A stretch of 64,000 nucleotides of DNA from Pelagibius litoralis (GTDB lineage Bacteria > Pseudomonadota > Alphaproteobacteria > Kiloniellales > Kiloniellaceae), in contig NZ_JAAQPH010000001.1 in assembly GCF_011683915.1 (NCBI RefSeq), positions 248,001 through 312,000 of the forward strand, written 5' to 3'. Shown in pieces: positions 12,285 to 26,908 of this stretch (position 1 is its first letter; each line of letters begins with the position of its first letter). The notes beneath the pieces were generated by a model. The model worked only from the letters and a program-made list of their open reading frames with translations. It searched no databases and was not told the origin of the DNA. The position numbers and the translations under genes were made by a program.

Positions 12285-12755
12285 CTATTCCGTCGTCGTT
12301 TCGTCGCCGCCGGCAAGCGCCGAGGTCATGGCGTGCCATGCGAGGGTGGCGCATTTGACCCGTACGGGAAACTCGCGCACGCCGGCCAGCACCTGCAATC
12401 GCTCCAGCGCTTCCCGGTCTTCGGTTCCGGCTTGCTCCGTGGTGAAGCCTCCTTCGGTGCAGAGTCGGTGAAAGTCATCGAACAACTGCTGTGCCTCGGT
12501 TTCCGTCTTGCCGCGCAGCACCTCGGTCATCATCGAGGCCGAGGCGATGGAGATCGCACAGCCTCTGCCCTCGAAGGCGACATCGCTGATATGGCCGTCC
12601 GCATCGGTCTCCAGGTAGACCGTGACCTGATCACCGCAGAGCGGGTTGTAGCCGCGCGCAGAGCGGTTCGCCGCCGGCGGATGCCGATGGTTGCGCGGAT
12701 GCTTGCCGTGGTCCAGGATCACTTCCTGATAGAGGTCGCGCAACACGTCCTGCAT
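12285..12755 (-). CDS. sufU: SufU-type sulfur transfer protein
   Basis: SufU receives sulfur from the SufS cysteine desulfurase and binds zinc. The 156-residue protein shows the ligand set of the family: Cys40 and Asp42 in NPLCGDQ, Cys66 in EGRGCAISIASASMM, and Cys135 in VRVKCATLAW. The insert around residues 95-125 that separates SufU from classical IscU is present, and the IscU LPPVK-type motif is absent. It lies four bases after the sufS stop, consistent with pairing as a SufS-SufU system. No sufE gene is seen in the cluster. Confidence 0.92.
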   Translation of the reverse strand: MQDVLRDLYQEVILDHGKHPRNHRHPPAANRSARGYNPLCGDQVTVYLETDADGHISDVAFEGRGCAISIASASMMTEVLRGKTETEAQQLFDDFHRLCTEGGFTTEQAGTEDREALERLQVLAGVREFPVRVKCATLAWHAMTSALAGGDETTTE

Positions 12756-12759
12756 GGTT

Positions 12760-14031
12760 CTAGCCGAACAGCTCCTTCACTTTTTCCAGCGCGCGGGCCA
12801 GGACGTCCACCTCCGCAGGGGTGTTGTAGAGCCCGAAGGAAGCCCGGGCCGTCGCCGGCAGGCCGAGGCATTCCATCAGCGGCTGGGCGCAGTGGTGGCC
12901 CACCCGGATGGCCACGCCCTCGCGGTCGATGATGGTGCCGATGTCGTGCGGATGGATACCTTCCAGGCCGAAAGAGATGATGGCCGCTTTTTCCTTGGCG
13001 GTGCCGTAGATCGTGAGACCGTCGATCTGCTGCAGCCGCTCGGTGGCGTAGGCCAGCAACCCGGCCTCATGGGCGGCAATCGCATCGTGTCCGATGGCGG
13101 TGACGTAATCGATGGCGGCGCCCAGCCCGATGACCTCAACGATCGGCGGTGTCCCGGCCTCGAAACGGTGTGGCGGATCGGCATAGGTCGTCTCGCTGAA
13201 GCTGACCGAGCGGATCATATCGCCACCGCCCAGGAAGGGCGGCATTTCCGTCAGAAGCGAGGCCTTACCGTAGAGCACGCCGATGGCTGTCGGGCCGTAA
13301 AGCTTATGGCCGGTGAAAGCATAGAAGTCGGCATCCAGATCCTGGACGTCGACCTTGCCGTGCACCACAGCCTGGGCGCCGTCGACCAGAACCAGTGCGC
13401 CGGCCTTGTGGGCCAGCCGGATGATTTCCTTCATCGGGTTCACGCTGCCCAGCACGTTCGACACATGGGTGATCGCCACCAGCCTCGTGCGGGGTGTCAG
13501 CATGTCTGCATAGGCATCCAGGCGCAGGCTGCCGTCCTCGGCGATGGGCACCACCTTCAGCGTAATGCCGATCCTGTCGCGCAGCAGCTGCCAGGGCACG
13601 ATATTGGCGTGGTGCTCCATCTCGGTGATTATCACCTCGTCGCCGGCGGCAAGGCTGTTGCCGAAGCTGTGGGCCACCAGATTGATCGCCTCGGTCACGT
13701 TGCGGGTGAAGACGATCTCCTGGTCCGAAGCGGCATTGAGGAAACGGGCAACGGTCTTTCGCACGCCCTCATAGCGGTCGGTCAGGGTCTGGCTGAAGTA
13801 GTAGGCGCCGCGATGAACGTTGGCGTAGCCGGTTTCCAGCAGTTCGCTCATGGCGTCGATAACCGCCCGAGGCTTCTGCGACGAGGAGCCGCTGTCCAGG
13901 TAGACCAGCGGTTTGCCATAGACCTGCTGCTTCAGGATCGGGAAATCCTCACGCAGCCGCTCGACATCGAAGGCGAGTGTGGAGTTACTGCCGGCGCCGA
14001 TCTCGGTCAGGGTATCTGTCGCCAGAGCCAT
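12760..14031 (-). CDS. sufS: SufS cysteine desulfurase
   Basis: This is a PLP enzyme of the class II (SufS/CsdA) cysteine desulfurase group, converting cysteine to alanine and a persulfide used for cluster assembly. The 423-residue sequence has DSGSSSQKP near residue 47, the PLP-linked Lys243 in FTGHKLYGP, and the active-site Cys381 in RVGHHCAQP. The short loop around Cys381 marks a SufS-type enzyme that needs a partner, here SufU. It begins one base after the sufD stop. Length and all motifs are intact. Confidence 0.96.
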   Translation of the reverse strand: MALATDTLTEIGAGSNSTLAFDVERLREDFPILKQQVYGKPLVYLDSGSSSQKPRAVIDAMSELLETGYANVHRGAYYFSQTLTDRYEGVRKTVARFLNAASDQEIVFTRNVTEAINLVAHSFGNSLAAGDEVIITEMEHHANIVPWQLLRDRIGITLKVVPIAEDGSLRLDAYADMLTPRTRLVAITHVSNVLGSVNPMKEIIRLAHKAGALVLVDGAQAVVHGKVDVQDLDADFYAFTGHKLYGPTAIGVLYGKASLLTEMPPFLGGGDMIRSVSFSETTYADPPHRFEAGTPPIVEVIGLGAAIDYVTAIGHDAIAAHEAGLLAYATERLQQIDGLTIYGTAKEKAAIISFGLEGIHPHDIGTIIDREGVAIRVGHHCAQPLMECLGLPATARASFGLYNTPAEVDVLARALEKVKELFG

Positions 14032-14032
14032 A

Positions 14033-15349
14033 TCAGAACTCCCTGCGGGTGCCGGCCAGCCAGTGGCCGATGGAGGACATGAGGGCGGGGCAGAGCCCCT
14101 CGGCCGCGATCTGGTCGACGGTCTCCCCCAGGAAGGCCTCGATCAGCATGGAACGGGCGGTTGCTTCGGGAATACCGCGGGCGCGCAGGTAAAACAGGGC
14201 ATCATGGTCCAGGTCGCCGGCGGTCGCGCCGTGGCTGCAGATCACATCATCGGCGTAGATCTCCAACTCCGGCTTGGCATCGATCTCGGCGCGGTCGGAC
14301 AGCAGCAACGCTTTGCTCAACTGATGGCCGTTGGTGTGCTGAGCGTCGCGGTGGACGGTCAGTTTGCCTTGAAAGACCGCGCGGGCGCGTTCGTCGATCA
14401 CGCCTTTGAAGACCTCGCGGCAAGTCGTGTTGGGTACCAGATGATCGATCATCGTGGTGTTGTCGCAGTGCTGGTCGCCGCGCACTAGATAAGCGCCGTT
14501 CAGGTGGCAGTTGGCGCCTTCACCGGCCAGCTTCACCGACACCTCGTTGCGCGACAGGCGCGCGCCGGTGGTCATCGAAAAGGCGTCGTAGAGGCCGTCG
14601 CGGCCGACCTCGGCCTTCACCGTCGCCAGGTTGAAGGCGTTCAACGCATCGGCTTGCAGCTTGTAGTGACGGAAAATCGCGCCGTCGCCGACCGTCACCT
14701 CGGTCATCGTGTTATTGAGATAGGGCTGGTCGCCGAGATGACTGAAATGCTCGATCAGCGTGGCCTGGCTGCCTTCCGCCAGGATCACCAGATTGCGGGG
14801 ATGGTAGGCGAGGGGGGCATCGCCCGCCCCGCCCAGGTGGACGACTTCCACTGGATGATGCAGCACCGTGCCGCGCGCCAGCCGCAGGACGAAACCGTTC
14901 ATCATCATGGCGGTATTCAGGGCCAGCATCGGCTGCACCTTGGGGCCGTTGAGGTGATCCAACTGGCTGGCCAGCCAGTCCGGATCGGCGGACATCTGCT
15001 CGGTCAGCGGCAGCAGTTGTGCGCCTTTCGGCAATTCGCCCAGACGCGACAGGTCGCTGCGGAAATGACCGTCGACAAAGACCATACGATGGCTTTCGGT
15101 CGTCTCGGGCAGCAGGCTCGGCGCCCGGTCGATCGAGATACAGGCCCGCGGCACGCCCTCGGCGGCGAAGGCAACCTTTTCGACCGGCCGCAGGCTGGTG
15201 TACTTCCAGGTCTCCAGACGCGGCGTCGGAAGGCCGCTCTCGGCGAAGTGCTGCAGGCCGCGCTCGCGCAGCGCCGTCAGCCAGGGCAGATCCTGTCCGG
15301 GAAGCTGGTCGCGCAGGGCGCCGAAGTGTTCGTTAAAAGCTTCTGTCAT
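14033..15349 (-). CDS. sufD: SufD, Fe-S scaffold subunit
   Basis: SufD pairs with SufB and SufC to form the cluster-building scaffold. The 438-residue protein has the SufB/SufD beta-helix core with RLETWKYTSLRPVEK near the N-terminus, a feature of SufD, and the C-terminal signature CSHGATAGDLDHDALFYLRARGIPE with the conserved Cys and His near residue 372. It lies 25 bp after sufC and one base before sufS, in a tight operon. The start at 15349 follows a purine-rich AGAGAGCAAG stretch. Confidence 0.95.
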   Translation of the reverse strand: MTEAFNEHFGALRDQLPGQDLPWLTALRERGLQHFAESGLPTPRLETWKYTSLRPVEKVAFAAEGVPRACISIDRAPSLLPETTESHRMVFVDGHFRSDLSRLGELPKGAQLLPLTEQMSADPDWLASQLDHLNGPKVQPMLALNTAMMMNGFVLRLARGTVLHHPVEVVHLGGAGDAPLAYHPRNLVILAEGSQATLIEHFSHLGDQPYLNNTMTEVTVGDGAIFRHYKLQADALNAFNLATVKAEVGRDGLYDAFSMTTGARLSRNEVSVKLAGEGANCHLNGAYLVRGDQHCDNTTMIDHLVPNTTCREVFKGVIDERARAVFQGKLTVHRDAQHTNGHQLSKALLLSDRAEIDAKPELEIYADDVICSHGATAGDLDHDALFYLRARGIPEATARSMLIEAFLGETVDQIAAEGLCPALMSSIGHWLAGTRREF

Positions 15350-15374
15350 CTTGCTCTCTAATTCTGCTCACCAG

Positions 15375-16121
15375 TCAGGCGGCGCCGGCGAACTCGGCAT
15401 AGCCTTTCGCTTCCAGTTCCAGCGCCAGTTCCTTGCCGCCGCTGCGCTGGATCCTGCCCTGTGCCAGAACATGAACCTGATCCGGCACGATGTAGTCCAA
15501 AAGCCGCTGGTAGTGAGTGATCACCAACATGGATCTGTCGGGGTCGCGCAGCAGGTTCACCGAATTGGCCACTGTCTTCAGCGCATCGATGTCGAGGCCG
15601 GAATCGGTTTCGTCCAGTATCGCCAGGCTGGGCTCCAGCACGACCATCTGCAGGGCCTCGTTACGCTTTTTCTCGCCGCCGGAGAAGCCGACGTTGACCG
15701 CGCGCTTTAGCATCTCGTCGTTGATGCCCAACTGCTTGGTTTTCTCGCGTACCATCTTCACGAACTGCATGGCGTCCAGCTCGTCCTCGCCGCGGTAGCG
15801 GCGCACGCCGTTCAGCGCCTCTTTCAGGAAGGTGGTGTTGGGTACGCCCGGGATTTCCACCGGATACTGGAAGGCGAGGAAAAGGCCTTCGCCGGCGCGT
15901 TCTTCCGGCGCCATCTCCAGGATGTTCCTGCCCTTGAACAGCACTTCGCCCTCGGTCACCTCATAGCCTTCGCGGCCGGTCATGACGTAGGACAGGGTCG
16001 ACTTGCCGGAGCCGTTCGGGCCCATGATGGCATGGACTTCGCCGGCCGGGATGGTCAGGTCCAGGCCCTTCAGGATTTCCTTGCCGTCCACGGTGGCGTG
16101 CAGGTTCTTGATCTCAAGCAT
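15375..16121 (-). CDS. sufC: SufC, ABC-type ATPase of the Fe-S scaffold
   Basis: SufC supplies ATP hydrolysis to the SufBCD complex. In 248 residues it carries Walker A GPNGSGKS (34-41), the Q-loop AFQYPVEIPGV, an ABC signature FSGGEKKR (about 146-153), and Walker B LAILDETDSGLD (167-178). The early Glu-Gly-rich insert PEERAGEGLFLAFQYP is SufC-specific. It has no membrane domain, as expected. It sits between sufB and sufD with short spacers. Confidence 0.97.
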   Translation of the reverse strand: MLEIKNLHATVDGKEILKGLDLTIPAGEVHAIMGPNGSGKSTLSYVMTGREGYEVTEGEVLFKGRNILEMAPEERAGEGLFLAFQYPVEIPGVPNTTFLKEALNGVRRYRGEDELDAMQFVKMVREKTKQLGINDEMLKRAVNVGFSGGEKKRNEALQMVVLEPSLAILDETDSGLDIDALKTVANSVNLLRDPDRSMLVITHYQRLLDYIVPDQVHVLAQGRIQRSGGKELALELEAKGYAEFAGAA

Positions 16122-16160
16122 TTTTCGCTGTGATCCTTGTTATGCGTTTCATCTTGTTGT

Positions 16161-17612
<1,452 letters not shown>

Positions 17613-17666
17613 TCAATAACTCTCCCGATACAACAAACGCTTGCTTGGTGTTTTAACTAAACTAGA

Positions 17667-18134
17667 TCAGCTTTTCCTGTCCGCCTGAACCGTTTTGGGG
17701 GCGGTTGTCTGCGACAGCCCGAAAGTCGCGGGGAAGGCAGACATTTCGGCCAGGCTGACGCTGGTCAGAGCGTCCTGAATGGCGGTGTTCACCTTGTTCC
17801 AGTTGCCGCGCATCGGACAGAGCGACTGCACGTCACAGGATTCGGCCGCGCCGTCGACGCAGGCGGTAAGGGCGATTGGGCCTTCAAGAGCCTGAATGAT
17901 CTGGGCCACCGAAATCTGCTCCGGACTGCGGCTGAGCGTGTAACCGCCCGTAGCGCCGCGCTGGGAGGTGACCAGACCGGCCCGGCCGAGAAGATTGAGA
18001 AGCTTGGAGACCGTGGGCAGCGGCACTGCGGTATCGTCGGCAATCTGCTGGGCCGATCGCAGGTTCTCGCCCCGCAGGCTCATCTGCGACATCACCACCA
18101 CCGCATAATCCGTCAGCCGGTTTAACCGGAACAT
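17667..18134 (-). CDS. Rrf2-family Fe-S-sensing repressor of the suf operon
   Basis: This winged-helix regulator of the Rrf2 family (IscR/SufR-like) probably represses the suf operon when clusters are sufficient. From the ATG at 18134 it has 155 residues. The DNA-binding N-terminus (LTDYAVVVMSQMS, LPTVSKLLNLLGRAGLV, RGATGGYTLSR) is followed by three cysteines in TACVDGAAESCDVQSLCPM, the usual [2Fe-2S] ligand pattern. The C-terminal part is short. It leads the minus-strand suf genes and has a strong inverted repeat just upstream of its start, so autoregulation is likely. Which cluster it binds is not provable here. Confidence 0.93.
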   Translation of the reverse strand: MFRLNRLTDYAVVVMSQMSLRGENLRSAQQIADDTAVPLPTVSKLLNLLGRAGLVTSQRGATGGYTLSRSPEQISVAQIIQALEGPIALTACVDGAAESCDVQSLCPMRGNWNKVNTAIQDALTSVSLAEMSAFPATFGLSQTTAPKTVQADRKS

Positions 18135-18145
18135 GGGAAACCTCA

Positions 18146-18168
18146 ATCCATACTAATCTAGTATAGAT
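18146..18168. promoter_or_regulatory. inverted-repeat operator upstream of the suf regulator
   Basis: Arms ATCCATACTA and TAGTATAGAT flank a three-base ATC spacer. The arms pair at nine of ten positions, and the inner six (ATACTA/TAGTAT) pair perfectly. The site begins 12 bases upstream of the regulator start and is followed by an AT-rich stretch, as expected for an Rrf2-family repressor site over the promoter. Binding by the adjacent regulator is inferred. Confidence 0.6.
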
Positions 18169-18366: not shown

Positions 18367-18741
18367 TCAGGGCTGGCTGCTGTTGGGGCAGTCGCCGGGG
18401 ACGGACGCCAGTTCTTCGCTGCTTTCACAGCCACCAGCATAATACTCAGGATGGGGGTCGCAGGGACCTTCATAGGATGTCTGCGAGGCGCCATCATGGC
18501 AGCCATATGCGTTGGTGGTTGAGCCCGGGACGGAGTTGGTCATTTGCCGGGGCCCGGTAGTGGGCCGCGTCGGGCCGGTTCCGCGCGTGGGTTTTTTGAG
18601 CTCTTGTGCGGCGATCTGCACGTACGCGTTGGCAGGCCCAAGATCTTCGGCGCTTGCTGATACCGAGCCCGCCATCAGCGCGACCAGCGCGGCAGCAATC
18701 GTATTGGCGGCGGGTTTGGCAATTCTGCATGTCATCGGCAT
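18367..18741 (-). CDS. small secreted Cys-containing protein, unknown function
   Basis: The likely start is the ATG at 18741, preceded six bases away by AGAGGAA, giving 124 residues. A signal peptide is clear (basic start, hydrophobic AAALVALMAGSVSASA, cleavage before EDLG). The mature part is about 90 residues, with a Thr/Pro/Gly-rich segment (GTGPTRPTTGPRQM) and a C-terminal half with four cysteines (YGCHDG, GPCDPHPEYY, GGCESS, GDCPNS), probably disulfide-bonded. I recognise no family. It stands alone between divergent promoters and has its own terminator. Confidence 0.7.
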   Translation of the reverse strand: MPMTCRIAKPAANTIAAALVALMAGSVSASAEDLGPANAYVQIAAQELKKPTRGTGPTRPTTGPRQMTNSVPGSTTNAYGCHDGASQTSYEGPCDPHPEYYAGGCESSEELASVPGDCPNSSQP

Positions 18742-19074
18742 TGAAATTTCCTCTCGAGGTTGAATTGGGGCAGAATCTTTCTCGATAAGAGATCGAAAAT
18801 CTACGGAAACCTGCGTTGTTGCTTCTGTGTCGTTCAAAGTGGCCGCTGGATTCATCCTGTCGGCAGTTTGGCCGGCTGTTACCGCCGCGCCGTCCGGTGG
18901 GTGCCGGGATCGGCTGAAAGGCGCCTCTCACGCTTTCTTGACGTGTAACCCCCCGCCTTTGATTTGCGTCACAGGTCATATCCTTACAGGTTTGAACGCG
19001 TGGATATCTTGTGGGGCCCGACCTGGCCCGGGGGCATGTTCATTGGGGATCAGGACAATACGGGAGTGATGATT
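18742..19074. other. intergenic region between divergent secreted-protein and cytochrome c genes
   Basis: This 333-bp stretch must hold promoters for the minus-strand small secreted protein and the plus-strand cytochrome c. The open frames running through it in both strands lack ribosome sites and look like extensions of the neighbours. I see no convincing repeat, tRNA or hairpin with a T tract. A GGGAG ribosome site for the cytochrome lies at 19062-19066. Confidence 0.5.
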
Positions 19075-19464
19075 ATGTTGCGGATGTTCTCAGCCGGCCT
19101 CTCGGCGACTTTGCTTGCCTTGGCTTTTGCTACGCCGGTTGCGGCGGCGGGTGATCAAGCGAACGGGCAAAAGCTGTTCAAGAAATGCTCTGCCTGCCAC
19201 TCCCTGGAAGAGGGTAAGAAAAAGGTCGGGCCAAGCCTTTACAAAATCTTCGGCGCCACCCCGGGTCAGGTCGCGAAGTTCAGATATTCCAAGGGCATGA
19301 CGTCCTACGGGGCGACCGGCGTCGTTTGGGACGAGGAAACCCTGGACGCCTGGCTGACGAAGCCGAAGGACCTTGTGAAAAAGACCAAAATGGCCTTTCC
19401 CGGCTTCAAGAAGGAACAGGACCGCGCCGACGTCATTGCCTATTTGAAGAGCCTGTCGGAATAA
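19075..19464 (+). CDS. class I c-type cytochrome (c2/c-550 type)
   Basis: A soluble periplasmic electron carrier. From the ATG at 19075 (GGGAG eight bases ahead) it has 129 residues. A Sec signal peptide ends at PVAAA. The mature protein has the heme site KCSACHSLEEGKKKVGPSLY (CxxCH near residue 40) and a Met-ligand region KTKMAFPGFKKEQDRADVIAYLKSL near the C-terminus, the classic class I layout. It is clearly paralogous to the next gene, 153 bp downstream. With two P460-family proteins beyond that, it may serve as their electron acceptor; that is inference. Confidence 0.92.
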   Translation: MLRMFSAGLSATLLALAFATPVAAAGDQANGQKLFKKCSACHSLEEGKKKVGPSLYKIFGATPGQVAKFRYSKGMTSYGATGVVWDEETLDAWLTKPKDLVKKTKMAFPGFKKEQDRADVIAYLKSLSE

Positions 19465-19617
19465 GCTGGGGAGAATGGCCCGGTTTCTGCGGGCCTGCGA
19501 CACTTCGGATCTTGTCTTACCGGCGGCTCCGCCTTTAGTCTGCGGCTGCTTCGGCGGAATGTCGTGGCTTCAGGAGAGATGGCCCCGCGCGGGGCACAAC
19601 AAGACCGGAGTGTTTTA

Positions 19618-20010
19618 ATGCGTCTGAAGAGCTCCTTTACCATCGCTGCCTTCGCCGCAGCGGCGCTCGTTTCCGCACCTGCCTTGGCCGAAGGCGACGC
19701 CGCCGCCGGCGAAAAGGTTTATCGCAAGTGCAAAGCCTGCCACGCCGTCGAAGAAGGCAAGAACAAGGTCGGGCCAAGCCTTTACAACATCGTCGACCGT
19801 GCTGTCGCAACCGTCGAGAAATACAAGTATTCCAAGGCGATGGTAGCCTTTGGCGAGGGTGGGGCCGTATGGGACGCCGAAACCCTGGATGCCTACCTCG
19901 AAGCGCCGAGGAAAGCGGTCAAGGGAACCAAGATGGCTTTTGCCGGCCTCAAAAAGCCGGACGACCGAGCCAACGTGATTGCCTATCTGATGCAGTTGAA
20001 GCCGGAATAG
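19618..20010 (+). CDS. class I c-type cytochrome, tandem paralogue
   Basis: A second soluble cytochrome c of 130 residues (start 19618, GGAG eight bases upstream). It has a signal peptide ending ALA, the heme motif KCKACHAVEEGKNKVGPSLY, and the axial Met segment GTKMAFAGLKKPDDRANVIAYLMQL. The mature sequence is close to that of the upstream gene, so the pair arose by tandem duplication. A hairpin followed by a T-rich run at 20034-20068 closes this gene. Both could shuttle electrons between a periplasmic oxidase or P460 protein and the respiratory chain. Confidence 0.92.
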   Translation: MRLKSSFTIAAFAAAALVSAPALAEGDAAAGEKVYRKCKACHAVEEGKNKVGPSLYNIVDRAVATVEKYKYSKAMVAFGEGGAVWDAETLDAYLEAPRKAVKGTKMAFAGLKKPDDRANVIAYLMQLKPE

Positions 20011-20130: not shown

Positions 20131-20910
20131 ATGAACCGATCGCGTGGGCTGTGTTTGTCCACCGCTGGACTTCGACAGGAGGCTGGCTTGGTTCATGGGT
20201 TCCTTTACGATCCGACGCCCCTTCGGCGCTTCAGAGGCGACGTTGCTGCGATCCGACCTCGGACGGCTTGTTCGATAAAACGTGCGAGCGCATTTGCCCT
20301 TCTGGCGATTGCCTGCCTGCTGCCGTTGTTTCAGGCGAAGGCCCAGGACTCGGATTTTGCTCGGCCGGAGCGGCACTTTTCGGTCGAGCGGCCGGCCGAT
20401 CTTTCGGCGGCCGATGCCCTTGTGGTCTACGATAAGGTGCGCGACCGCATGGTCGCCGGCTATCGCCTGTCCCACGACCCCACGGCCGGGACCTTCGTTG
20501 AATGGCGGCGTTACAATTCAGCGCCCTACCGCTCCGCGACCCATGGCCAGCGTTTTGTGAACAACTACGCCAACATGACGGCCAAGGCCTATGGCCGCTA
20601 TGAGGAGGCGGGGCCGATGCCGGTCGGATCCATCCTGGCCAAGGACTCCTTTGCGGTGACCCAGCGCGGCGACGTTTTCACCGGTCCGCTGTTTCTGATG
20701 GAAAAGATGTCGCCGGGATTTCGCCCTGACGCCCATGACTGGCGCTACACCATGATCATGCCCGACGGCAGCCTGTTCGGCGTGACCAATGGCGAAGGCA
20801 GCGAGCGGGTCGAGTTCTGCATCACCTGTCATGAAGCGGTCGATGAAGATCAGCACCAAATGTTCTTTGTCCCCGACGAGTACCGGGTAGAGTTCCTCAA
20901 TCTAAGGTAA
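20131..20910 (+). CDS. cytochrome P460-family protein, c-type heme
   Basis: A secreted member of the cytochrome P460 family, heme proteins known in ammonia oxidisers to convert hydroxylamine or bind NO. The P460-like core spans about residues 95-255: FVEWRRYNSAPY, THGQRFVNNYAN, then MPVGSILAKDSF with a Lys in the position where the family carries its conserved Lys, [20 protein letters not shown], and the heme site EFCITCHEAV (CxxCH). The hydrophobic signal (AFALLAIACLLPLFQAKA) begins only near residue 52, so the true start may lie downstream of 20131, perhaps at TTG 20188. It has two close paralogues in this window. Activity is not deducible. Confidence 0.85.
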   Translation: MNRSRGLCLSTAGLRQEAGLVHGFLYDPTPLRRFRGDVAAIRPRTACSIKRASAFALLAIACLLPLFQAKAQDSDFARPERHFSVERPADLSAADALVVYDKVRDRMVAGYRLSHDPTAGTFVEWRRYNSAPYRSATHGQRFVNNYANMTAKAYGRYEEAGPMPVGSILAKDSFAVTQRGDVFTGPLFLMEKMSPGFRPDAHDWRYTMIMPDGSLFGVTNGEGSERVEFCITCHEAVDEDQHQMFFVPDEYRVEFLNLR

Positions 20911-21122: not shown

Positions 21123-22274
21123 ATGAAGTCCAGGAAGCGCTTATTAATGTCGACTGCCGTGGTTCCCTTGGCGGTTTTGGCTGGTGTGGCGGCCGGAGGC
21201 CTGCTTGTCACAGGGCATATGGGCGTTCCCATGGCCCAGGCAGCCTGTAACCCTTGCAACCCCTGCGCTGCGAAAAAGCCGGTGAACCCTTGCGCGGCCA
21301 ATCCTTGCGCAGCGGCAAACCCTTGTGCGGCCAAGGCGTGCAACCCCTGTGCAGCGAATCCCTGTAACCCTTGTGCAGCGGCCAATCCCTGCGCGGCGTC
21401 GAACCCTTGCAACCCCTGTAATCCGTGCAATCCCTGCAATCCTTGTGCGGCCGGCGGCGGCGGCGCGGTCGCAGCCTGCGCAATTCCCCGGATTCAGGCA
21501 GCGGCAGCGGCCAATCCCTGCGCGGCGAAGAATCCCTGCAACCCCTGTGCGGCCAACCCGTGCAATCCTTGTGCGGCCAATCCCTGTGCTGCCAAGGCAT
21601 GCAACCCTTGCAATCCCTGCGCGGCGAAGGCCTGCAATCCCTGTAACCCTTGCGCCGCCAAGAACCCGTGCAATCCTTGCGCCGCGAACCCCTGTAACCC
21701 TTGCGCGGCGGCGAACCCTTGCAACCCCTGTAATCCGTGCAATCCCTGCAACCCCTGTGGGGCTGGTTCGGCACCTGAGCTGACCGACGCGGAAGCACTG
21801 GCTGCCTATGACTGCATGTTCGAGACCATGAAGGCCGCCTACGCGAAGTCCGACAAGGGCGATGCTTCCGGCTATTCGAACTGGCGGCAATACAGCACGC
21901 AGGCCTATGTCTCCGACACTCACGGCGGGCGCTATGTCCAGAACTGGGGTAACTCGGCGGCGAAGGCCTACGGGCTTTATGAGAATGCCGGAACCTTCCC
22001 GCCCGGTGCGAAGCTCGGCAAAGACAGCTTCGGCGTTAATGCCAAGGGTGATGTTTCCGTCGGGCCGCTGTTCCTGATGGAGAAGATGCAGGCGGGCTTT
22101 AACCCGGATAGCGACGACTGGCGCTACACCATGGTGATGCCGAACGGCTCGGTCTTTGGAACCACCAATGGTGCCGGCTCCGATAACGTTGCCTTTTGCA
22201 TCGGTTGCCACCAGTCGGTGACGCCGGAACAGGATAACGTCATGCTGCTGCCCGAAGAATACCGGGTGAAGTAG
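21123..22274 (+). CDS. P460-family cytochrome with giant Asn-Pro-Cys repeat domain
   Basis: A secreted 383-residue protein in three parts. Residues 1-41 are a signal sequence or membrane anchor. Residues 42-212 form a low-complexity region with 38 cysteines, 33 of them in NPC triplets joined by AA, AAK or AAA spacers, split in two blocks by a Gly/Ala linker (GGGGAVAAC). Residues 213-383 are a P460-family domain: [57 protein letters not shown] and heme motif [15 protein letters not shown] precedes the start by nine bases. The domain matches its upstream neighbour closely. The repeat could bind many metal ions or cross-link by disulfides; both are inference. Confidence 0.9.
21246..21758 (+). 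repeat. in-frame NPC-codon tandem repeat within the P460 gene
   Basis: Codons for Asn-Pro-Cys recur 33 times with Ala/Lys spacers, using mixed synonymous codons (AAC/AAT, CCC/CCT/CCG, TGC/TGT). A 38-base stretch at 21402-21439 recurs exactly at 21714-21751, 312 bp (104 codons) away, and each copy lies in a run of five consecutive NPC triplets at the end of a block. This points to duplication of a whole block after the short unit had expanded. Confidence 0.9.
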
Positions 22275-22282
22275 GGACGGTT

Positions 22283-22801
22283 ATGCGGACCGGACCGCGG
22301 CGCCCTACCTTGCGCCCTTCGGTTCGCATCCTGTTGACGTTTTTTGTTGTGATCACCGCCTCGACCTTAGGGTCGGGGCGGTTGTCGTTTGCAGACTTCG
22401 TCGATGGTCTGGCCGCCTACGATGCGGGCGATCTGCAGGCCGCCTATGACGAGTGGCTTCCCTTGGCGCAGGCCGGCGATCTGCAGGCCCAGGTGGCCCT
22501 GGCTGGTTTGCTGCAGGTTGGAGGGTTCGGCCTGGCGCGAAACTTTCCGGAGGCTGTCGCCTGGTATCGGCGGGCCGCTGAGCGCGGCGACCCTGTTGCC
22601 CAGATGAACCTTGGCGATCTTTATGCCAAGGGGCAGGGGGTGAAACGCGATGCCGTCCGGGCCTTCGCCTGGCTTTCCCTGGCGGCCGAGCAGGGGCGCG
22701 ATTGGGCCGCGCGGCAACGCGATGCCTTGGCGGAAACCATGACCCCTGAGGAAACAGCCGAGGCAAAGGCGCTGATGGTGCAACTGCGCGCCGCCTACTG
22801 A
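22283..22801 (+). CDS. secreted Sel1-repeat protein
   Basis: The 172-residue product has an N-terminal hydrophobic segment (ILLTFFVVITASTLGSG) likely to be a signal sequence, then Sel1-like repeats: AYDAGDLQAAYDEWLPLAQAGDLQAQVALAGLL, the next with NFPEAVAWYRRAAERGDPVAQMNLGDLY, and a third with DAVRAFAWLSLAAEQG. Such repeats form helical protein-protein scaffolds. It starts nine bases after the NPC-repeat P460 stop, so the two are almost certainly co-transcribed. A partner or assembly role for the P460 proteins is a reasonable guess. Confidence 0.85.
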   Translation: MRTGPRRPTLRPSVRILLTFFVVITASTLGSGRLSFADFVDGLAAYDAGDLQAAYDEWLPLAQAGDLQAQVALAGLLQVGGFGLARNFPEAVAWYRRAAERGDPVAQMNLGDLYAKGQGVKRDAVRAFAWLSLAAEQGRDWAARQRDALAETMTPEETAEAKALMVQLRAAY

Positions 22802-26185: not shown

Positions 26186-26908
26186 ATGTCCGTTCATGTT
26201 GTCGCGTTCGCGGCCGCAGTCTTTATGACCATCGCCTCTGCCGTTGCCACCGGCGTTGCTGCGCAATCGATCACGGCTGCGGCCCCCGATCAGGAGGCCC
26301 AGTACTTCGATGACGAACTGGACGACCTGGATGAGCCGCGCCGCGCCTACAGAGTCCAAAGCCCGGCCGAACCGAATCGTCATGACCGGGTCCAGAATCC
26401 CGCCGAGTTGACGGCGGAGGAAGCAGCGGCGATCTACAATGATCTGGCAGACGACCTGGCGGCGACTTACGCCCTCAGCGGCGATCCGGTGACCGCCGGC
26501 TACAGGGACTGGCAGCGTTTCAACGCGGCGCCCTACAAGTCGATGACCCACGGCCGGCGCTACGTTAACAACTATGCAAATGAAATCGCGGCGCGCTACG
26601 GCCGGTACGAGGCGGCAGGGCGCCTGCCGGTCGGCTCTGTCGTGGCCAAAGACAGCTTCGTCGTGACCGACGATGGCGCCACTGGACCGGGGCCGCTTTT
26701 CGTCATGGAGAAGATGGCGGAGAGCTTCAACTATGTGACCGGCGACTGGCGCTACTCGATGATTTCGGCCACAGGCGAACTTCTTGGCCGGACCAACGGC
26801 CAGGGGGCTGACCGGGTCGAATTCTGCATCTCCTGTCACTTGGCCGTGGAAGACCAGGACCATCTTTTCTTCGTGCCGGAAGAGGCACGCCTGGCGCCAG
26901 GGCCATAG
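26186..26908 (+). CDS. cytochrome P460-family protein, third paralogue
   Basis: This is a 240-residue secreted protein with a signal peptide ending at VAAQ and an acidic linker (about 30-75). The P460-like domain (about 75-240) includes AGYRDWQRFNAAPY, THGRRYVNNYANEIAARYG, LPVGSVVAKDSF with the family Lys, GPLFVMEKM, DWRYSMISATGE and the heme motif EFCISCHLAV. It is plainly related to the two P460 proteins at 20-22 kb but separated from them by mscS and upp. AGGAG lies upstream of the ATG at a rather long spacing. A strong hairpin follows. Function may be hydroxylamine or NO chemistry by family analogy only. Confidence 0.87.
   Translation: MSVHVVAFAAAVFMTIASAVATGVAAQSITAAAPDQEAQYFDDELDDLDEPRRAYRVQSPAEPNRHDRVQNPAELTAEEAAAIYNDLADDLAATYALSGDPVTAGYRDWQRFNAAPYKSMTHGRRYVNNYANEIAARYGRYEAAGRLPVGSVVAKDSFVVTDDGATGPGPLFVMEKMAESFNYVTGDWRYSMISATGELLGRTNGQGADRVEFCISCHLAVEDQDHLFFVPEEARLAPGP

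Follow-up and report, generated by a model that had tools for sequence, protein, structure and literature searches.

A repeated Asn-Pro-Cys array joined to haem c domains in Proteobacteria, a possible periplasmic thiolate buffer for soft metals

A stretch of 64,000 nucleotides of Pelagibius litoralis DNA (the window) was found to encode an exported protein in which a long array of Asn-Pro-Cys (NPC) triplets precedes a P460-like haem domain. The array is parted by a conserved insert, whose cysteine covaries with one in the haem domain, is fused to an unrelated haem domain in other lineages, and is genetically coupled to DUF6969 (PF22308) and to an exported FGE-like protein (PF03781). As a tentative explanation, and the best that we can offer, the NPC system may be a periplasmic soft-metal thiolate buffer, probably for copper, with the haem as redox partner and with DUF6969 acting in maturation.

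Anatomy of the fusion protein

The features of the window to which the text refers, all of them on the forward strand, are the following:

18964..19464, + strand, c-type cytochrome (c550-like), upstream neighbour (PF00034)
19564..20010, + strand, second c-type cytochrome (c550-like; PF00034)
20131..20910, + strand, P460 paralogue without the Cys array, directly upstream, without equivalents of C119 and C231
21123..22274, + strand, NPC-array/P460 fusion protein, 383 aa, same architecture in 80 loci
21123..21242, + strand, predicted signal peptide, residues 1-40, AQA before ACNPC as read from the sequence
21246..21446, + strand, Cys array block 1, residues 42-108, AlphaFold pLDDT mostly <50
21447..21512, + strand, docking insert, residues 109-130, C119 in CAIPRIQAA, modelled as strand and helix
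21513..21758, + strand, Cys array block 2, residues 131-212, from the sequence
21774..22271, + strand, P460/c'-beta-like haem domain, residues 218-383, from PF16694 and structure alignment
21813..21815, + strand, C231, haem-domain helix cysteine, proposed disulfide partner of C119 from covariation
22020..22022, + strand, K300, invariant Lys at the P460 haem cross-link position, from alignment
22197..22211, + strand, CxxCH haem c attachment site, residues 359-363, invariant
22283..22801, + strand, Sel1-repeat protein (PF08238), directly downstream of the fusion gene, lineage-specific neighbour
26186..26908, + strand, second P460 paralogue without the Cys array (PF16694, 42.5 bits)

The original prediction had counted 38 cysteines and 33 NPC triplets in residues 42-212, and both numbers were exact, the whole protein having 41 cysteines. 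The position of this tract between a signal sequence and a P460-like domain with CxxCH was confirmed by the open reading frame, the haem site and the AlphaFold fold, and the two P460 paralogues were indeed found to be without it. The predicted signal peptide is further supported because the attachment of c-type haem also requires export. The tract consists of two blocks, both predicted to be disordered and parted by a conserved CxIPR segment, with medians of 17 and 18.5 cysteines among the homologues.

The assignment of the haem domain was examined at the level of sequence and structure. PF16694 matched residues 250-367 just under its curated cut-off (E=9.8e-6, 26.4 bits against 27), and a phmmer search of the PDB with the P460 domain alone returned chance HU matches only. 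Residues 242-383 of the AlphaFold model aligned to P460 and c'-beta structures with Z scores of 10.8 to 6.7 (7ead 10.8, 6hiu 10.0 and 2je2 6.8, over 123-128 residues). The invariant K300 was aligned to Met79 of NeCP-beta (7s5o) and to Phe61 of TtCP-beta (7ead), which are the positions equivalent to the cross-linking Lys70 of NeP460 (PMC11928373). The distal carboxylate for proton relay, present in the hydroxylamine-oxidising P460s (PMC11928373), fell at G325 via 7s5o and at E320 via 7ead, so that the two alignments disagree on this position. With the P460/c'-beta family (PF16694) the window protein thus has in common the fold, the CxxCH and the invariant Lys at the haem cross-link site, whereas the N-terminal Cys array, the CxIPR docking insert and C231 are its additions.

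The segment between the array blocks carries the conserved motif C-x-[VI]-P-R, and its residues 111-130 were modelled as a strand and a helix with a pLDDT of 81-93 between the two low-confidence blocks. C231 belongs to the haem domain, where it lies in the first helix. After a check of truncated loci, which left three proteins that could not be judged, both cysteines were present in 73 proteins and both were missing from four (L046, L071, L074 and L084), the sole exception being L080, where only the helix Cys was present. In P460 paralogues without an array neither cysteine was found wherever the helix was readable. From this covariation we infer a C119-C231 disulfide that would staple the tract to the haem domain, leaving block 1 as a free arm and closing block 2 into a loop. 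A reading of CxIPR as the CxPxR substrate motif of FGE was not adopted, because the covariation with C231 offers a simpler structural reason and the spacing differs (CxxPR versus CxPxR).

Upstream of the fusion gene, the reverse strand of the window carries SUF iron-sulfur cluster genes with an Rrf2-type regulator (12754-18146), in an order common to related loci (L005-L007, L010, L030 and others), and an exported protein of 162 aa (18367-18855) that belongs to no known family, contains Cys in its C-terminal region and is conserved solely where the locus shares synteny with the window. The source genome (6.03 Mb, 64 contigs, 99.48% complete) holds the fusion gene on contig C11 and a standalone NPC protein gene on contig C12, while the FGE-like and DUF6969 genes are co-oriented neighbours on contig C3, apart from the two NPC genes.

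Recurrence of the array and its genetic partners

A scan of GTDB genomes returned 192 related stretches, from which 80 loci were kept for analysis, and in all 80 the NPC array was followed by a C-terminal CxxCH. Their titles named Kiloniellales, Sneathiellales, Rhodospirillales, Hyphomicrobiales and other alphaproteobacteria, with a few given only as 'Proteobacteria' or 'Pseudomonadota'. Many came from metagenome-assembled genomes, and the cultured strains carrying the system included Aestuariispira insulae, Sneathiella litorea, S. chungangensis, S. glossodoripedis and Denitrobaculum tricleocarpae. A repetitive sequence in a draft genome could raise the suspicion of a sequencing, assembly or slippage artefact, the outcome that the original prediction had named as removing its novelty. 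This explanation was rejected as most improbable in view of the recurrence in 80 independent loci from many species, the completeness of the 6.0 Mb genome (99.5%) and the encoding of the 33 triplets by 10 different 9-mer spellings, the last of which suggests that selection maintains the amino acids.

The spacing of the cysteines was then compared with their number. Among 75 homologues, the gap between consecutive cysteines was three residues in 61% of the cases and six in 22%, whereas random placement at 18.6% Cys would give gaps of three in about 12%. The number per tract ranged from 10 to 88 with a median of 34. That the number varies while the CxxC spacing is kept suggests that capacity outweighs a unique fold.

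A standalone exported NPC protein of about 80-120 aa was common, often in the same genomes as the fusion, and exactly 12 cysteines were present in 16 of the 28 found. Near the 80 loci, DUF6969 was detected in 42 cases and the FGE-superfamily protein in 36, the latter usually divergent and at a median distance of 124 bp. Other neighbours were YeeE/YedE sulfur transporters (PF04143, 17 loci), SNase-like proteins (15), a weakly cupredoxin-like protein whose cupredoxin score was below threshold (13) and DUF302 (7). The link to Sel1 proteins that had been suggested before proved weak, Sel1 being found near 17 loci that belong mainly to the window's own lineage; as a main partner it was rejected for this lineage specificity, and DUF6969 and the FGE-like protein are the stronger partners.

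In a class-level sample of 289 genomes, NPC was found in 35, DUF6969 in 60 and the FGE-like protein in 20. DUF6969 was present in 33 of the 35 NPC genomes (26 of 27 families; Fisher p=1.5e-24) and NPC in 17 of the 20 FGE-like genomes (Fisher p=3.6e-15), in tests that treat genomes as independent and ignore shared ancestry. At the cut-off, 27 DUF6969 genomes were NPC-negative, and variant arrays were proved in only some of them, among these G004 and G125. Two of the three FGE-like genomes scored as NPC-negative also carry variants. In G064 the NPC is replaced by KCGACGAK within the same fusion architecture, beside FGE-like and DUF6969 genes, so that the Cys periodicity appears to be essential and NPC itself not; G267 has a diverged small NPC protein. 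In the third, G040, no NPC array was found in the stretch read.

Some of these arrays were arranged in other ways. On the reverse strand of G125:C4 (L136), the P460 haem domain is interrupted by a second NPC array, placed between the strand of the cross-link lysine and the next strand. In G004, an exported Cys protein of small size, encoded near DUF6969, has HHHHH and repeats of the NPCAGK type (L129 3814-4101), and L130 (G233:C3:338213) encodes an exported protein in which a short NPC array precedes a domain similar to dual-specificity-type phosphatases.

Of all the partners DUF6969 recurs most consistently, and it is the first candidate for a role in maturation. The sequences read have no signal peptide, so the protein is probably cytosolic. 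In the numbering of L048:10074-10823, its invariant residues include E53, H56, H74, H76, E82, H85 and H87, and in the model (mean pLDDT 90.1) a tight turn joins the predicted strands 69-79 and 82-91. This strand-turn-strand arrangement would bring H74/H76 and H85/H87 onto one face, which suggests a candidate metal site. No usable relative of the fold was found in the PDB (best Foldseek E 0.5, best VIA-align Z 4.1), which does not prove that the fold is new, and no paper on DUF6969 was found in the literature.

The FGE-like partner is a clear member of the FGE/EgtB/PvdO superfamily, with which it shares the domain (PF03781, 157.8 bits, and PDB matches). FGE proper has a CxxxxC copper-binding pair after GGS. 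Compared by motif, the partner has instead GGSWDDxGCGxC, invariant in 28 sequences and without a CxxxxC pair after GGS, and its identity as a true FGE was rejected because it scores far below every NCBIfam equivalog.

At the phylum level, NPC matches were found in 53 of 398 genomes. The haem c domain joined to this array in other classes of Proteobacteria is of the SoxA/TsdA type and unrelated to P460; one alphaproteobacterial genome (G627) has such a fusion too. PF21342, the family with which these fusions share their haem domain, was above its cut-off of 27 in the seven proteins tested (29-49 bits), and the match to SoxA (1h31, E=1e-10) aligned an invariant Cys of the fusion to a Cys of SoxA. 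Unlike SoxA, the fusions have a single haem domain plus the Cys array, and as true SoxA they were rejected on the equivalog score (45 bits against a cut-off of 110). DUF6969 adjoins the array in five genomes (G624, G640, G347, G470 and G627), and in one lineage the genes for YeeE, a small NPC protein, DUF6969 and a rhodanese follow in that order, and SoxC is encoded about 3 kb from them.

In the large array-bearing family f176, DUF6969 had no match that reached the cut-off, and Met and His abound besides Cys in the arrays (MNPCNPCSMKKHMNPC). The NPC arrays as a whole also include the variant motif HGHGMNPC. At some f176 loci (L161 6721-10632, L162 and L170) an arsenite methyltransferase-like gene and the arsenosugar radical SAM gene ArsS stand beside the arrays, neighbours that hint at a link to arsenic. 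ECF sigma genes were seen near NPC/SoxA-type fusions at four non-alphaproteobacterial loci (L157 1649-2260, L158 4636-5507, L166 737-1540 and L170 7400-8253), two of which also hold an anti-sigma or zf-HC2-like gene.

Possible functions of the array

The even spacing of the cysteines, their variable copy number, the interchangeable haem and the Met/His variants are best fitted by a soft-metal thiolate array. The NPC tract would be a periplasmic polythiolate for soft metal ions, most likely Cu(I), and the array an MNIO-independent functional analogue of the bufferins. The small free form may serve as a soluble buffer, and the second form would be attached to a haem c domain (P460-like in the window protein, SoxA/TsdA-like in other lineages) that could exchange electrons with the array and so set the redox state of the thiols or the metal. 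The cytosolic, His-rich DUF6969 would mature or load the array before export, and the exported FGE-like protein, with its conserved CGxC, would act on it afterwards. Copper is the likeliest ion, with arsenic or others as alternatives. Among the functions listed in the original prediction, metal binding is therefore retained as the best reading, though proof is lacking.

This proposal is favoured by the wide range of Cys numbers at a kept CxxC spacing, by the relative in which KCGACGAK takes the place of NPC without loss of periodicity, and by variants that add classic soft-metal ligands (MNPCNPCSMKKHMNPC, HGHGMNPC, and HHHHH with NPCAGK near DUF6969). The frequent standalone protein with its recurrent 12 cysteines, the co-occurrence of DUF6969, adjacent in several lineages, and of the FGE-like protein, and the difference in haem partner among lineages point the same way, and the ECF sigma and zinc-finger anti-sigma genes, together with the weak cupredoxin-like neighbour, resemble metal-stress loci; published bufferin clusters likewise carry sigma/anti-sigma genes (PMC12452194). 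Against it, no metal-transport or metal-regulator family was found among the conserved neighbours in Alphaproteobacteria, the cupredoxin assignment is below threshold, the Fisher tests ignore shared ancestry, variant arrays were proved in only some of the 27 NPC-negative DUF6969 genomes, f176 is without a DUF6969 match above the cut-off, and an array in the periplasm might merely be oxidised to disulfides. Moreover, YeeE/YedE and the SoxA/TsdA haem point to sulfur, and the main rival to a metal buffer is a multi-site sulfur carrier, with the haem oxidatively loading thiosulfate or sulfane sulfur on Cys as SoxA does on SoxY, and with transporters of the YeeE/SoxT type importing the sulfur. SoxT proteins are YeeE-like sulfur importers adjoining sox clusters (PMC11582611), and the presence of YeeE near 17 alphaproteobacterial loci, its cluster with NPC, DUF6969 and rhodanese close to SoxC, and the fusion to a SoxA/TsdA-type cytochrome whose invariant Cys aligns to one of SoxA all agree with such a carrier. 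Nevertheless, most alphaproteobacterial fusions use the P460 haem, YeeE is missing from most loci, a domain of the SoxA type may also serve as a general electron carrier and the Met/His-rich variants suit metal better, so that we consider a sulfur carrier rather unlikely.

Less probable again is a disulfide-linked structural material, such as a cross-linked envelope or matrix layer, in which the haem would drive thiol oxidation. The predicted disorder of the array is compatible with it, as is the precedent of the exosporium protein CdeC of C. difficile, which has 37 Cys, includes a 6-NPC repeat and self-assembles partly via disulfides (PMC7677010). A matrix would nonetheless have little use for a haem enzyme or for coupling to a cytosolic DUF6969, the free form is short and usually has 12 Cys, and the Met/His variants would be left unexplained. 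We give slightly less credit still to a thiol store or sensor for the NO or hydroxylamine chemistry of a P460 haem, which the original prediction had also raised: it draws on the P460 fold and on the invariant Lys at the haem cross-link position, and it is weakened by the fusion of the array to SoxA/TsdA-type haem in other lineages, by arrays that occur without haem, and by neighbourhoods in which no nitrification genes recur.

A bolder reading, that of a new class of polythiol protein matured after translation, seems rather unlikely. In this reading DUF6969 would be a previously unrecognised metal-dependent enzyme that modifies cysteines or Asn-Pro-Cys units before export, the FGE-like protein would act in the periplasm, and the covalently tethered haem would then use the array as a many-site thiol or metal cofactor.

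Relation to known systems and significance

Among known systems the bufferin/oxazolin group (Buf_EGKCG; DUF2282, Buf2, EGKCG repeats), MNIO-modified RiPPs that sequester copper in the periplasm (PMC12452194), is the nearest working analogue. Like the NPC proteins, bufferins are exported and Cys-rich, occur in short and long repeat forms, are in some cases fused to other domains, have a dedicated cytosolic partner and are accompanied in some clusters by sigma/anti-sigma genes (PMC12452194). In contrast, the NPC motif, the haem fusion, DUF6969 and the FGE-like partner are not bufferin features. A blast search with the MNIO (DUF692) of the window genome against the ORFs of the sampled NPC loci gave no match, DUF2282 gave none on the array or the small NPC proteins tested, and no EGKCG motif was present in the sequences read. 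Membership in the MNIO/bufferin group was rejected, as no MNIO is linked to the NPC loci sampled.

The sole MNIO gene of the window genome lies on another contig (C44; L125 5424-6825), directly after a DUF2282-like bufferin precursor (KCYGISLAGQNDC...), and this pair is a Cys-based system separate from the NPC one. CdeC resembles the NPC protein in its many cysteines and its NPC repeat (PMC7677010), a likeness by description; it differs in being a Firmicutes spore protein with a 6-NPC repeat only and no haem domain described.

The original prediction had regarded the fusion as unusual among P460 proteins and as little described, and both views were borne out. Neither Pfam nor NCBIfam had a model that matched the repeat or covered the NPC array and its haem fusions, and literature searches on P460 with cysteine-rich repeats, or on Asn-Pro-Cys with haem or copper storage, found nothing on the NPC system. 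Exported polythiol buffers already exist, and Pfam lists DUF6969 among its families of unknown function; of the NPC haem-fusion system with its DUF6969 and FGE-like partners there seems to be no earlier description. If DUF6969 were a modifying enzyme, the system would be of a new kind. If the metal-buffer reading is right, a widespread group of Proteobacteria, most of them marine, would have a periplasmic thiol or metal buffer built without MNIO enzymes, which would therefore be missed by genome mining that now uses these enzymes, DUF6969 would receive its first function, and the joining of haem c proteins to polythiol arrays would have happened on at least two occasions.
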